From Sphingomonas sp. Root710 (GTDB lineage Bacteria; Pseudomonadota; Alphaproteobacteria; Sphingomonadales; Sphingomonadaceae): a DNA stretch of 64,000 nucleotides. The stretch covers positions 310,001 through 374,000 of the forward strand of contig NZ_LMIB01000012.1 in NCBI RefSeq assembly GCF_001429065.1, written 5' to 3'. The position numbers and the translations under genes are program-made. The notes below the pieces were generated by a model that saw only the letters and a list, made by a program, of their open reading frames with translations, did no database searches and was not told the origin of the DNA. The first letter of the stretch is position 1. Each line of letters begins with the position of its first letter. This document shows, one piece after another, positions 59,985-63,885 of the stretch.

Positions 59985-60422
59985 ATGCTTGACGTCGCTC
60001 CGACAGAATTGCTGCTGGTCGCGGTGGTCGCCTTGCTGGTGATCGGCCCGAAAGACCTGCCGCGCGCCATGCGGTTCGTCGGTCAGTGGGTTGCGCGCGC
60101 GCGCGGTGTCGCCCGGCATTTCCGCAGCGGCATCGACGAGATGATCCGCCAGGCCGAGCTGGAGGAGATGGAGAAGAAATGGGCAGCGGAGAATGAGCGC
60201 ATCATGCGCGAGCATCCGCCGCAGCCTGCGATGATCGAAGGCGAGATGGTGCCGCTGGGCGGTCCGCCGGAAACCGGGGCAGCAGCCGCGATCGACGCTC
60301 CCGCCGCCGATCCCGATCCGGCCCCCGCGCCACCCAAGTCCCTCACGCCGGCCCCTGCCGCTACTCCCGATCTGTTCGATCCGGCCCCGGCCGAATCCCC
60401 GTCCAAACCGCCGCTACCATGA
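59985..60422 (+). CDS. tatB: Sec-independent translocase protein TatB
   Basis: TatB forms the twin-arginine signal receptor with TatC. The 145-aa protein has one membrane helix (ELLLVAVVALLVIG), the GPKDLPRAMR hinge and a long charged amphipathic helix with AELEEMEKKWAAENERIM. A Pro/Ala-rich end of low complexity follows. It lies between tatA and tatC, overlapping tatC by four bases. Confidence 0.93.
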   Translation: MLDVAPTELLLVAVVALLVIGPKDLPRAMRFVGQWVARARGVARHFRSGIDEMIRQAELEEMEKKWAAENERIMREHPPQPAMIEGEMVPLGGPPETGAAAAIDAPAADPDPAPAPPKSLTPAPAATPDLFDPAPAESPSKPPLP

Positions 60423-61177
60423 ACGATATCGACGAGAGCCGCGCGCCGCTGCTCGATCATTTGCTGGAACTGCGCCGCCGTCTGCTGATGTCGGTCGCCG
60501 CGCTGGTCGTCTGTTTCGGTATCTGCCTCTATTTCGCCCGGCCGATCTTCGCGTTCCTCGTCCAGCCGCTGTTGCGCGCCGGGCAGGGCAAGCTGATCTA
60601 CACGCAGATTTTCGAGGCCTTTTTCGTCGAGATCAAGGTCGCCTTCTTCGCGGCGACGATGCTCGCCTTCCCGATCATCGCCAACCAGATCTGGCAATTC
60701 GTCGCACCCGGCCTCTATCGCAACGAGAAGCGCGCGCTGCTGCCCTTCATCCTGGCCACGCCGATATTGTTCCTGACCGGCGCGGCGCTCGCTTATTATG
60801 TCGCGATCCCGGTGGCGCTGCACTTCCTGCTGAGCTTCCAGGGCAATCTCGGCGGCATCCAGCAGGAGGCCCTGCCCGCCGTCGGCAATTACCTGTCCTT
60901 CATCATGCAATTCCTGTTCGGCTTCGGGCTGTCCTTCCTGCTGCCGGTGCTGCTGATGCTGCTCGAACGCGCCGGAATCGTTACCCGCAAACAGCTGGTC
61001 GGCGCACGGCGCTACGCTATCGTCGGCGCCTTCGCGATCGCGGCGGTGCTGACCCCGCCCGATGTCGGATCGCAGCTGCTGCTCGCGGTGCCGCTGGTGT
61101 TTCTCTACGAACTGGCGCTGATCGGGATCTGGTTCACCGAACGCCGCCGCAAAAACGAAGCGCCCGAAACGGCCTGA
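60419..61177 (+). CDS. tatC: Sec-independent translocase protein TatC
   Basis: TatC is the core receptor for twin-arginine signal peptides. The 252-aa protein has six membrane helices and begins with the conserved PLLDHLLELRRRLL. Other signatures are the KLIYTQIFEAFFVEIKVAFF stretch, in which the glutamate contacts the signal peptide, and the PGLYRNEKRALLPF motif. The end is short and basic. Confidence 0.95.
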   Translation: MNDIDESRAPLLDHLLELRRRLLMSVAALVVCFGICLYFARPIFAFLVQPLLRAGQGKLIYTQIFEAFFVEIKVAFFAATMLAFPIIANQIWQFVAPGLYRNEKRALLPFILATPILFLTGAALAYYVAIPVALHFLLSFQGNLGGIQQEALPAVGNYLSFIMQFLFGFGLSFLLPVLLMLLERAGIVTRKQLVGARRYAIVGAFAIAAVLTPPDVGSQLLLAVPLVFLYELALIGIWFTERRRKNEAPETA

Positions 61178-61222: not shown

Positions 61223-61354
61223 TCACTTCGCTGCGTCGGATACTGTCCGGCCGACCGAGGAGACATCCTTGCCAACGCCCTCGAATGTGTTGCACGCCGT
61301 AACGGCCATAAAGGCGCCGCCCGCGAGCATGAGAGCGATAACGCGTTTGATCAT
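61223..61354 (-). CDS. Entericidin-like small lipoprotein
   Basis: This 43-aa lipoprotein reads MIKRVIALMLAGGAFMAVTA followed by CNTFEGVGKDVSSVGRTVSD and AAK. The lipobox is VTAC, with Cys21 as the lipid site. The short mature part is typical of entericidin A/B, small lipoproteins of the cell envelope linked in E. coli to a toxin-antidote pair and stationary-phase bacteriolysis. AAAGGGGC lies about 9 nt before the ATG. The neighbouring gene at 61599 is a close paralogue. Confidence 0.8.
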   Translation of the reverse strand: MIKRVIALMLAGGAFMAVTACNTFEGVGKDVSSVGRTVSDAAK

Positions 61355-61458: not shown

Positions 61459-61599
61459 TTACTTGGCGTCGTCCGCCGCGTTGGCAACGGCCTTGCCGGC
61501 CGAGGAAACGTCCTTGCCGGCGCCTTCGACGGTATTGCACGCCGCAACGGCGAGCAGGCTGACGCTGACGAAGGCGATAGCGATAGTGCGCTTGAACAT
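61459..61599 (-). CDS. Entericidin-like small lipoprotein, paralogue
   Basis: This 46-aa lipoprotein begins MFKRTIAIAFVSVSLLAVAA and continues CNTVEGAGKDVSSAGKAVAN. The lipobox is VAAC. The mature region shares CNTxEGxGKDVSSxG with the gene at 61354, so the pair arose by duplication. GAGAGGG precedes the ATG by 6 nt. A longer frame to 61695 is not supported. About 50 nt upstream is an imperfect sigma-EcfG promoter (GGAAC-N16-CATT); the E. coli entericidin B gene is also under stress sigma control. Confidence 0.85.
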   Translation of the reverse strand: MFKRTIAIAFVSVSLLAVAACNTVEGAGKDVSSAGKAVANAADDAK

Positions 61600-61648
61600 G
61601 GTGAACCCTCTCGATTGAACTGGGCTTCCACTGGGAAGCTCGACGGTC

Positions 61649-61721: not shown

Positions 61722-61827
61722 CCCCAAAAGAAAATGGGCCCGGCTGCGTCTACGGGGGGGATGACGCGACCGGGCCCTTGTTAAGCGGATAGCGGGAGCG
61801 GGGGGGGCAAAGCATCGCTATCCGAAT
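61722..61827 (-). ncRNA. Candidate stress-induced small RNA with C-rich loops
   Basis: Read on the minus strand, the transcript would start close to 61826, just in front of a hairpin with arms CGGATAGCG/CGCTATCCG (61824-61816 and 61794-61786) and a 21-base loop containing eight consecutive C. A second hairpin follows with arms GGGCCCGG/CCGGGCCC (61777-61770 and 61743-61736), an inner GCGTC/GACGC stem and a loop with seven C. It ends in ATTTTCTTTT, so this second hairpin also serves as the terminator. There is no protein frame. C-rich loops are typical of sRNAs that pair with G-rich ribosome-binding sites. A perfect sigma-EcfG promoter precedes it. Confidence 0.65.
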
Positions 61828-61832
61828 AACAG

Positions 61833-61857
61833 AACGGCTTGCCGTGCATCGGGTTCC
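61833..61857 (-). promoter_or_regulatory. Perfect sigma-EcfG promoter GGAAC-N16-CGTT
   Basis: On the minus strand GGAAC (61857-61853), a 16-nt spacer and CGTT (61836-61833) match the consensus of the alphaproteobacterial general stress sigma factor exactly. The predicted start lies directly before the hairpins at 61824-61736. The nepR and phyP-like genes of the same regulatory system are adjacent. Confidence 0.7.
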
Positions 61858-61933
61858 GCCCGCCGAGATTTTTTTATCGTGAACTCGGAACGGCGACAGC
61901 GCGGGACAGGATCGGCGAGAAAGCCGCGACCGG

Positions 61934-63496
61934 TCAGGCCAGGATACTGATCTGGATTTCGAACCGGCCGGCGTCGAGGTCCTGCGTCAGCGGCGACCGG
62001 AACTGACGCGCAATGCCGGTGACCACGCGATCGAAGCGGCCGATACCGGGATAGTCGCCCAGCGTGTCGCCGACGAGGCCCACCGTTTCGATTCGCAGCG
62101 TCGCGCGTTCGGGCTCCCCGGTCGCTTCCAGCGAGATCAGTACCGACCCTTGCGGGTTGCAGTGCATCAGCAACTCGACAACCTCGGTGATCAGGAACGC
62201 CACCGGGACCGCGACGTCCTGCGTCACGTTGACGTCGATCATGTTGAGCGCGATCGGCATGCCTGCGGCGGAGGCGGGTGCCGAGGCACGCAGCGAGGCC
62301 GCCAATTCCCCGGCCAGCGCGCGCATCGACACGCCGCGATTCTCCTCGAGCTCGGCATAGTGGTTGCGGTGGACCACCGCGAGCGCATCCACCCGCCGCT
62401 GGATTGCGCCATAGGCGTCGGCCACCGCCCCTTCCGCGCCGCGCGCATGGAGGTTGATCAGGCTGGAAACGACTTGAAGGTTGTTCTTGACCCGGTGATG
62501 GACCTCGCGCGTCAGCTTGGTCTGGCGGGCAAGCCCTTCCTCCAGTTCGCGTTCATGCTGATAGATGCGCGTCGACACCGCCGCGAAACTGTCCGTCAGA
62601 TCGCGTATCTCGTGGCTGGGCGTCGTCATCCGGGGCAGCAGCAACGGCCCGCCGGCCCCCTGCCAGGCATCGATCGACTGCTTCAGCTGCGCCAGCGGAA
62701 AGAGCAGCAGCCGGTTGACGATGAACCAGCCGGTGAACGCCGCCGCCGCCCACATCAGGATCGGCAGCATCACCAGCAGCATGGTGCGCGCCCGCGCCGG
62801 AGCCAGCCGATATTCGGCGATGATCGCCAGCCGGCCATCGCCGACCGGCTGCGACAGCCGCAGCAGTTCGTCGCGGTCGTTGTTCGGCAAGCGGCGGTCG
62901 ATCAGGATGACTTCGGACTGCCCTTGGCGCAGCGAGAGACGCGTTAGCGGCAGCCCTTCCTTGCGCTGGCCGCCGAGCGCAATGGCGCGAACCGGAATAT
63001 CGGCCTCGGCGCGAAGGCTCGCATCGCCGCGCGCGGACGTGAAGCGGAAGCGCCGGCCCTCGGGATCGAGCCAGACATGGTCGACGCTGGGATCGGAGGC
63101 CGCGATCGACGGGATCGACGGACCCCAGGACTGGCAGAGCTTGCGTCCTTCGCGATCGAACAGTGCGGTCGGCGGCCGCCCGCTGGGATTGAGCCGGGCC
63201 TGCCGCGCCAGCGCGGTGCACAGATCGTCGGCCGGCTGGGTACTAACGACCGGTGAGCGGACGGCGTCGAGGCCCACATTGACGACGGCGTCGGCCTGCG
63301 CCGCATACATGGCGGTGGTTATCTGCGCCGCCGTCTCGCGCTCGGCGGAGGCTGACCGCGCCATGTCCAGCGAGGTCAATAGCGCGATGAATCCGAGCGG
63401 CAGCATCGCGGCCGACAGAATCAGAAGCATCTTGGTACCGGTCGAGAGCCGGGCGAAAAGGATCTTTGCCGGCCAATTCTTCACGACAGGATTCAT
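61934..63496 (-). CDS. phyP: PhyP-like sensor histidine kinase with degenerate ATPase domain
   Basis: This 520-aa membrane protein has a first membrane helix (about 23-45), a periplasmic sensor part (about 46-245), a second helix (about 247-268), a HAMP-like linker and a HisKA_2 dimerisation domain. The phospho-acceptor motif is EVHHRVKNNLQVVSSLINLH (about 343-362). The ATP-binding domain lacks the usual N-box asparagine: TEVVELLMHCNP replaces the ELVTNAxKHA-type sequence, and the G-boxes are not clear. In Sphingomonas a related protein, PhyP, encoded at the PhyR locus, negatively controls PhyR, probably as a phosphatase. The location beside nepR supports this identity. Confidence 0.75.
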   Translation of the reverse strand: MNPVVKNWPAKILFARLSTGTKMLLILSAAMLPLGFIALLTSLDMARSASAERETAAQITTAMYAAQADAVVNVGLDAVRSPVVSTQPADDLCTALARQARLNPSGRPPTALFDREGRKLCQSWGPSIPSIAASDPSVDHVWLDPEGRRFRFTSARGDASLRAEADIPVRAIALGGQRKEGLPLTRLSLRQGQSEVILIDRRLPNNDRDELLRLSQPVGDGRLAIIAEYRLAPARARTMLLVMLPILMWAAAAFTGWFIVNRLLLFPLAQLKQSIDAWQGAGGPLLLPRMTTPSHEIRDLTDSFAAVSTRIYQHERELEEGLARQTKLTREVHHRVKNNLQVVSSLINLHARGAEGAVADAYGAIQRRVDALAVVHRNHYAELEENRGVSMRALAGELAASLRASAPASAAGMPIALNMIDVNVTQDVAVPVAFLITEVVELLMHCNPQGSVLISLEATGEPERATLRIETVGLVGDTLGDYPGIGRFDRVVTGIARQFRSPLTQDLDAGRFEIQISILA

Positions 63497-63562: not shown

Positions 63563-63772
63563 TCAGTCCAGCTTGCTCAGCAAATCCAAAAATTCGTCGG
63601 GAACGGCTTCGTCGACGGTCTGCGAATAGACCGAACGCAGCGCAGCGCCCACGCTCGCGTCACGCGCCGCCTCGCCGCGCTTACGCTTGGCAGGCTTGCT
63701 GCCCCCGCCGTCGTTCGCCGGTGCCTGCATCTGATCTTTTTGTGCCAACCGGCCCGCGCCCCTGAAATTCAT
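63563..63772 (-). CDS. nepR: Anti-sigma factor NepR
   Basis: NepR binds sigma-EcfG and keeps the general stress response off until phosphorylated PhyR removes it. The 69-aa protein has a disordered basic start and the conserved C-terminal core VGAALRSVYSQTVDEAVPDE followed by FLDLLSKLD, which are the two helices that clamp the sigma factor. ATG 63772 is chosen; a TTG at 63784 would add four residues. The sigma factor gene itself does not follow; the PhyP-like gene lies 66 nt downstream. phyR and ecfG are probably just outside the window. Confidence 0.9.
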   Translation of the reverse strand: MNFRGAGRLAQKDQMQAPANDGGGSKPAKRKRGEAARDASVGAALRSVYSQTVDEAVPDEFLDLLSKLD

Positions 63773-63885
63773 GTCGTTGCCCAACGCTCCTCAGCAAAAC
63801 GGCCCTGGCAGGCGCCGCTCTCCCTGGATCGATCCGGATACGTACCATTTTTCGACTTTCGATAAAATGCACGCATCGGGGATGA

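Follow-up and report, generated by a model that had tools for sequence, protein, structure and literature searches.

A candidate stress-response small RNA with two C-rich loops and its conservation in Sphingomonadales

The RNA locus and its promoter

The window (the whole 64,000-nucleotide stretch of DNA that was analyzed) carries on its minus strand a putative small RNA gene with two C-rich hairpin loops, hereafter the two-loop RNA, which is flanked by genes of the general stress response and by genes for entericidin-like lipoproteins (Table 1). Alphaproteobacteria rely on the PhyR-NepR-EcfG response as a main survival system, and one of the organisms that serve as a model for it is Sphingomonas melonis Fr1. 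Pfam searches detected NepR, PhyR, sigma factor regions 2 and 4, a HisKA_2/HWE kinase, and two entericidins at the locus, which bears out the neighbors, nepR and a phyP-like gene, that an earlier sequence-only reading of this DNA had named. The sigma factor suits EcfG by its place and by a PhyR_sigma2 match. In the stress locus as a whole (L022), which lies partly beyond the window, ecfG and phyR are on the plus strand, and nepR, the kinase gene, the RNA, and the two entericidin genes are on the minus strand, followed by the converging tatC. Beside ecfG, beyond the window, a second NepR-like frame (L022:7725-7976, minus strand), which has no Pfam match, ends by eye in ...DEFTKLLRKLDR.

Table 1. 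Coordinates of the features at the locus of the two-loop RNA in the window
Feature	Position	Strand	Evidence
tatC, converging on the RNA	60419..61177	+	motif in relatives; protein served as TatC query
Second entericidin-like lipoprotein gene	61223..61354	-	PF08085
Entericidin-like lipoprotein gene, downstream neighbor	61459..61602	-	PF08085
U-rich tail	61726..61735	-	window letters; relatives
Small RNA, about 100 nt (putative)	61726..61828	-	covariance models R1 and R2 match 61724-61825; covariation
Hairpin 2, 14-pair stem (one mismatch) that is probably the terminator, loop C7 at 61754-61760	61736..61777	-	fold, alignments, covariation
Hairpin 1, nine-pair (9-bp) outer stem, loop C8 at 61800-61807	61786..61824	-	fold, alignments, covariation
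-10 box CGTT	61833..61836	-	window letters; kept in relatives
-35 box GGAAC, sigma-EcfG-type promoter	61853..61857	-	window letters; kept in relatives
A7 tract 5' of the -35 box, possible UP element	61869..61875	-	window letters; putative function
PhyP/PhyT-like HWE/HisKA_2 kinase, upstream neighbor	61934..63496	-	PF07568, PF07536
NepR anti-sigma factor	63563..63784	-	PF18557

The GGAAC-N16-CGTT promoter that had been claimed just ahead of the hairpins is present at 61857-61833 of the minus strand, with a 16-nt spacer between its boxes and with stem 1 beginning eight bases past CGTT. A match to the exact pattern is expected 0.34 times per window, and at least one occurs in 31 of 100 shuffles. 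In the whole genome the pattern is found 28 times versus 47 times for a reversed control pattern, which is a weak control both here and in the seed-plus-ATG scans described below. Because a lone match is above chance neither in the window nor in the genome, it carries little weight. Within the 12-kb stress locus, the exact pattern occurs twice, 5' of the RNA and 5' of ecfG, and none of 200 shuffles reach two. The case for the promoter, as a motif, rests on its conservation, the match in the window alone not being significant.

To follow this conservation, we used a pattern scan of named genomes, which returned at least 80 loci, 79 of them genuine; the match on an Arenibacter contig (L116) was due to chance. 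The scan pattern contains stem 1 and loop 1, so both are found by construction, and hairpin 2, the promoter, and the neighbors are independent of it; the pattern leaves out the window's own genus, whose loop differs by one base. In 78 of the 79 genuine named loci listed, GGAAC followed by 15-18 nt and NGTT lies within 52 bases before stem 1, and the sole exception to NGTT (L120) reads GGAAC-N16-CATT. Among the 78 named loci listed that have 60 upstream bases, the distance from the start of GGAAC to stem 1 is 34 bases in 68, 35 bases in 9, and 33 bases in L121; GTT stands at the fixed place in 75 of the 78, and CGTT in 67. As a control, random positions within these named loci were put to the same test, which 34 of 156000 pass. 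In the named loci listed, the spacer columns of the N16 class are 32-70% identical, except for the C directly 3' of GGAAC (92%), and at columns -53 to -48, the site of the A-tract in the window, 55-74% of the loci have A.

Another set of 67 loci contains the exact promoter pattern in 39 and GGAAC-N15-18-[CGT]GTT in 61, a count that includes one locus (L071) not believed to be a member. The rest of this set has CATT (L035), AGTT (L039), a degenerate promoter (L064), or no promoter (L068, L072, and L073). The putative RNA is preceded by a conserved GGAAC-N16/17-NGTT whose distance to the predicted start is fixed, as would mark a sigma-EcfG unit. In the available parts of the two sphingomonad regulon papers, the consensus reported for S. 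granuli is the one seen here (PMC7083833), and that of S. melonis Fr1, GGAAC-N17-20-GTT, agrees with it (PMC6599016).

Comparison also shows that the place of the RNA is kept. Among the eligible named loci listed, a kinase motif is found upstream, on the strand of the RNA, in 65 of 68, a PhyR motif is nearby in 36 of 38, an EcfG motif is nearby in 28 of 30, and a tatC motif converges on the RNA in 32 of 36.

Hairpins, loops, and coding potential

The sequence-only reading had described two stable hairpins, one with a C8 loop and one with a C7 loop, ahead of a U-rich tail, and all of them are found where it had put them. The predicted fold of the window RNA has a minimum free energy (MFE) of -51.6 kcal/mol (z = -5.27), and none of 200 dinucleotide shuffles are equally stable. 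The window has fewer runs of C7 than chance would give (14.2 expected, 4 found), and three of the four lie inside the two-loop RNA. The transcript would begin near 61825-61828 and end within the U-tract. Hairpin 2 was missed by a simple terminator scan, whose loop limit is 8, the loop of hairpin 2 having 12 unpaired bases; at least five T among the first 10 bases 3' of stem 2 were counted in 54 of 73 relatives.

In an alignment of 73 sequences, 98.3% of the cells hold standard pairs and 16 of the 20 pairs show compensatory change, values that none of 500 shuffles match on any of five measures; when the partners are slid by 1-3 columns, pairing drops to 31-42%. This alignment was fitted to the covariance model and therefore favors its pairing. 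A sequence-only alignment of 18 sequences gives identical stems and 7 double-changed pairs. (An earlier alignment, A4, in which 18 of the 92 rows were second or antisense matches, was dropped and replaced by A5, without L068.) Because the stems covary, we regard the locus as an RNA gene whose structure is revealed by comparison.

The same comparison brings out the loops. Loop 1 has at least six C in 70 of the 73 sequences and contains CCCGCTC in 67, while loop 2 has at least six C in 70 and at least five in all 73. The anti-Shine-Dalgarno word of the ribosome, CCTCC, occurs in loop 2 of 42 of the 73 sequences and is absent from the window RNA. In all 73 predicted MFE folds, both C-runs are at least 80% unpaired. 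The conserved element of the loops, as judged from these alignments and folds, is an exposed C-run.

Could the unit be something other than a gene for a regulatory RNA? Hairpin 2 and the U-tail are shaped like a terminator and lie 3' of the kinase gene, so the hairpins might be merely one or two transcription terminators of that gene with no function as RNA. We consider this highly improbable: a terminator does not need the promoter just upstream, the letters of the loops are better kept than those of the stems (the conserved word of loop 1 above), and the unit is present without the kinase in diverged genera.

The claim that there is no coding frame holds in substance, except that the window RNA contains, by eye, a 21-codon ATG frame, which would fit an mRNA for a tiny protein. 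That reading is extremely unlikely, given that ATG is missing from the first 45 nt in 32 of the 73 sequences of the alignment, that a closed ATG/GTG frame of at least 15 codons is found in just 16 of the 73, and that the length of the C-run differs by one base among relatives.

The RNA might instead be the leader of the downstream entericidin gene, controlling it in cis by, for example, attenuation. The two are on the same strand, and an entericidin motif lies downstream in 52 of the 71 eligible named loci listed; the motif is absent, however, from the other 19 and from most diverged loci, and the entericidin gene of the window has, by eye, its own GGAAC-N16-CATT at 61673-61649 (minus strand), so that we hold a leader to be very unlikely. 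In the available text on S. granuli, ecnAB is named as a direct stress target (PMC7083833).

We favor reading the locus as an independent gene whose product, a small RNA of about 100 nt, acts in trans and is likely part of the sphingomonad general stress response.

Distribution in the order and a one-loop RNA

BLASTN against 60 relatives found matches in 20 genomes, including 14 of the 14 of the window's genus (its own genome counted); 18 of the matched loci carry the two-loop RNA, and three matches (L017, L020, and L021) are chance and not members. A covariance model built from the 18 loci (R1) was run on 297 genomes of the order and matched 86 of them at E <= 0.01, and a second one built from 73 sequences (R2) matched 94 of the 297 at E <= 1e-4. 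The promoter region was read in 62 of these 94 genomes: four matches (G139, G228, G267, and G294) have no promoter and were counted out, the promoter of G116 is degenerate, and that of G258 is cut by the end of its contig. After removal of the four promoterless matches, the two-loop RNA is present, by model match, in 90 of the 297 genomes. Among 387 genomes of the class, R2 matched two: that of the window and another from the same family. The genera among the named loci listed by the pattern scan are Sphingomonas, Sphingosinicella, Sphingomicrobium, Stakelama, and Hephaestia, in addition to metagenome bins. The conservation check proposed by the sequence-only reading thus came out positive, with hairpins and promoter kept across Sphingomonadales relatives.

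Eight further model matches were judged to be non-members: L068, L071, L072, and L073, of which all but L071 are without the promoter, and L212, L213, L216, and L217. L072 and the latter four have C-loop hairpins, double or single, with no GGAAC promoter ahead of them and are possibly further C-loop RNAs under other control. One genome (G018) carries two two-loop RNAs (L067 and L081), each with a GGAAC promoter, in different places.

In diverged genera, the promoter and the C-loops are kept and the stress genes are not always adjacent. The neighbor retained by most of the diverged versions is tatC, which lies 0.9-1.4 kb off in L067, L069, L070, L202-L211, and L215. In L065, L066, L079, and L081, promoter and loops are present and the tatC motif is not within reach, and in L062 and L063 the motif was not found in their shorter flanks. 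Of 28 loci examined for the tatC site in genomes lacking the two-loop RNA, 23 showed no such RNA there (two of these regions being shorter than 450 bases), and in the other five the motif was not located.

Of 20 genomes lacking the two-loop RNA, 16 have PhyR, and 17 PhyR loci were taken from them. A scan of these loci for GGAAC-N15-18-NNTT followed by a C-loop hairpin gave 6 candidates; the same scan of 800 kb of four two-loop genomes returned the two-loop RNA only (8 hits, 4 RNAs). We found a common RNA in 12 of the 17 PhyR loci, with a GGAAC promoter, a stem with the loop CCCCCCTCCCGTCCAA, and a U-run terminator; the RNA is divergent from phyR, and a model match added L227 as the thirteenth locus. 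Examples of this one-loop RNA are L223:4980-5071 and L229:4206-4301 (both minus strand), and it is found in 11 more stress loci. In L219, L234, and L235, PhyR loci that were read, no C-loop RNA was seen. In all 17 one-loop sequences read, which come from 15 genomes, GGAAC-N16 leads into CATT, CGTT, or CGTA, and RNAalifold predicts two hairpins, with double changes in 6 of 23 pairs.

The one-loop RNA resembles the two-loop RNA in its GGAAC-N16 promoter, exposed C-rich loop, terminator, and place at the stress locus, and differs from it in having one C-loop (CCCCCCTCCCGTCCAA), a separate terminator, and an orientation divergent from phyR. No fitting Rfam family and no published name were found for it; ctRNA was rejected as its identity, the match covering its terminator only (30.3 bits versus a cut-off of 50).

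A covariance model of the one-loop RNA (R3) matched 104 of the same 297 genomes. R2 and R3 overlap in four genomes, exactly those with the promoterless R2 matches, so that the order divides into 90 genomes with the two-loop RNA, 104 with the one-loop RNA, none with both, and 103 with neither (E up to 1e-4). The 18 genera with the two-loop RNA and the 26 with the one-loop RNA have none in common. Comparison of genomes therefore shows two alternative forms, and, because the split follows genera, it may mirror two branches of the family rather than many separate events. One or the other C-loop RNA is present in 194 of the 297 genomes, which points to such an RNA as a standing output of sigma-EcfG, an idea that is directly testable.

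In the stress locus of one genome with neither RNA (L233, near 5726, minus strand), a C8-loop hairpin and a terminator follow GGAAC...CGTT; this hairpin is perhaps a third form.

Kinship, mechanism, and targets

Rfam searches at gathering score gave no match in the window and none overlapping the RNA in four relatives. The name EcsR1, which we take to be that of an Erythrobacter RNA, was not found in the literature searched. The two-loop RNA was likewise not described in that literature, which included the available parts of PMC5898713, PMC4741004, PMC6563040, and PMC8103513 and had supplements and most subscription journals outside its scope; to that extent the sequence-only reading was right to call it undescribed. 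Both sphingomonad regulon papers deal, in their available text, with coding genes: the main text on S. melonis Fr1 has no mention of non-coding or small RNA or of intergenic regions (PMC6599016), and that on S. granuli has no mention of small RNA, SuhB appearing only in a reference (PMC7083833). On these comparisons, the two-loop RNA forms a genuine family that is conserved, lies behind a sigma-EcfG-type promoter, and is undescribed to the extent of our searches.

The nearest known system is GsrN of Caulobacter, for which we draw on the available part of PMC5869019. GsrN is under a general-stress ECF sigma factor, has a C-rich loop near its 5' end, and usually lies near ecfG-nepR-phyR in Caulobacteraceae (PMC5869019). 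It pairs with katG mRNA, its main target, and activates it, co-purifies with many mRNAs that have G-rich sites, and is affected in its processing by Hfq (PMC5869019). This processing yields a stable 5' isoform, which Hfq stabilizes. Erythrobacter litoralis, the sole genome of Sphingomonadales considered there, has no apparent gsrN-like gene (PMC5869019). The two-loop RNA shares with GsrN the general-stress ECF sigma-type promoter, the C-rich loop near the 5' end, which is predicted to be exposed, and the place near ecfG, nepR, and phyR, though the last does not extend across all diverged genera; unlike GsrN, it has two C-loops, the second within its terminator stem. The target katG was rejected as common to both in this genus: of the 14 genomes of the genus, 5 gave a katG (TIGR00198) match and 9, the window's own among them, gave none. 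We suggest that the two-loop RNA would work most like GsrN, while identity with GsrN is not established.

It is possible, and we put it forward tentatively, that the two-loop RNA is a true, strongly changed descendant of GsrN, from which both sphingomonad forms, with one loop and with two, would have branched. The sigma factor class, the C-rich 5' loop, and, often, the locus are the same (PMC5869019, available text), and the one-loop form is nearer to GsrN in plan. In addition, R3 weakly matches one diverged two-loop RNA (L065) in the same place (24.1 bits, E = 0.0013), because of which a common origin of the two sphingomonad RNAs is conceivable. Against descent, R2 finds nothing outside the family in the 387 genomes of the class, a comparison in which GsrN's own sequence was not included, and it has no match in the 17 PhyR loci of genomes without the two-loop RNA, 13 of which hold the one-loop RNA. 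Descent from GsrN is held to be likelier because the one-loop form was found.

Other known RNAs are more distant. SuhB of Sphingopyxis granuli is a trans-acting small RNA of 61 nt that is high at fast growth and represses thnR; it is likewise a sphingomonad small RNA, but it has no link to a stress sigma factor in the available text of PMC6563040, and its Rfam family has no match in the window at gathering score. The best sub-threshold Rfam match, at 61727-61825 (minus strand), is Scr3202 of Streptomyces (RF02833), which likewise has two hairpins with C-rich loops. With 29.1 bits versus a cut-off of 52, an E value of 0.38, and another phylum, Scr3202 was rejected as a look-alike, and the shared plan of two C-loops is perhaps a convergent design.

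From these features, we infer the following course of events. PhyR would free sigma-EcfG from NepR, and RNA polymerase would then start at GGAAC-N16-CGTT, a few bases before stem 1, and stop at hairpin 2 and the U-tail. The two stiff stems would hold out both C-runs, which may serve as seeds for G-rich stretches of mRNAs, probably with the help of Hfq, and the pairing would change the translation or stability of these mRNAs. In other genera of the order, the same role may be filled by the one-loop RNA at the stress locus. An hfq gene is present in the genome, as one 184-codon frame with two Hfq domains (G000:C1:760275-760694).

Tests for targets gave no excess of pairing. For genes of the stress locus, no conserved pairing with the start regions was found (84 loci, of which 6 were unscorable; NepR in one locus only). 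In 200-kb stretches of four genomes, spanning about 4% of the genome, pairing in 81 of 86 genes with orthologues showed no excess over shuffles (mean z of +0.08 and +0.14 for loops 1 and 2, respectively, against +0.10 for reversed loop 1). Seed-plus-ATG patterns occurred at 15 and 114 places in 14 genomes, and the 15 and 30 places that were read contained no recurring gene with a convincing start; two of the places are antisense of the two-loop RNA itself.

Such null results, together with two equal C-runs per molecule, would also fit a sponge, whose C-runs bind a protein or another RNA rather than mRNAs. We find a sponge unlikely: no partner is known for it, pairing with an mRNA (katG) is seen in GsrN, the nearest analogue (PMC5869019, available text), and the letters flanking the C-run of loop 1 are also kept, which suits pairing. 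Under stress, the two-loop RNA probably modulates other mRNAs through base pairing with G-rich stretches in them.

A bolder proposal, which we regard as speculative and rather doubtful, is that the sigma-EcfG response of Sphingomonadaceae regularly includes a C-loop small RNA, in two mutually exclusive forms (297 genomes), that each molecule of the two-loop form, with equal seeds in the first loop and the terminator loop, can block large numbers of G-rich ribosome-binding sites and thereby curb translation in general under stress, and that this form arose independently of GsrN.

The sequence-only reading had suggested that the RNA may be the RNA arm of the general stress response. Position and promoter support this well; the notion of a C-rich-loop RNA in this response is not new, GsrN being its precedent. 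The further suggestion that the RNA silences many mRNAs found no support in the target tests above, and GsrN, the best-studied analogue, activates its main target (PMC5869019). A comparable arrangement is found in Escherichia coli, where, in the available text of PMC8103513, MicA, RybB, and MicL are driven by RpoE and many of their targets are outer membrane proteins. There too, an arm of small RNAs extends an ECF sigma factor to genes that it does not transcribe, although the sigma factor (RpoE) and the RNAs are different ones.
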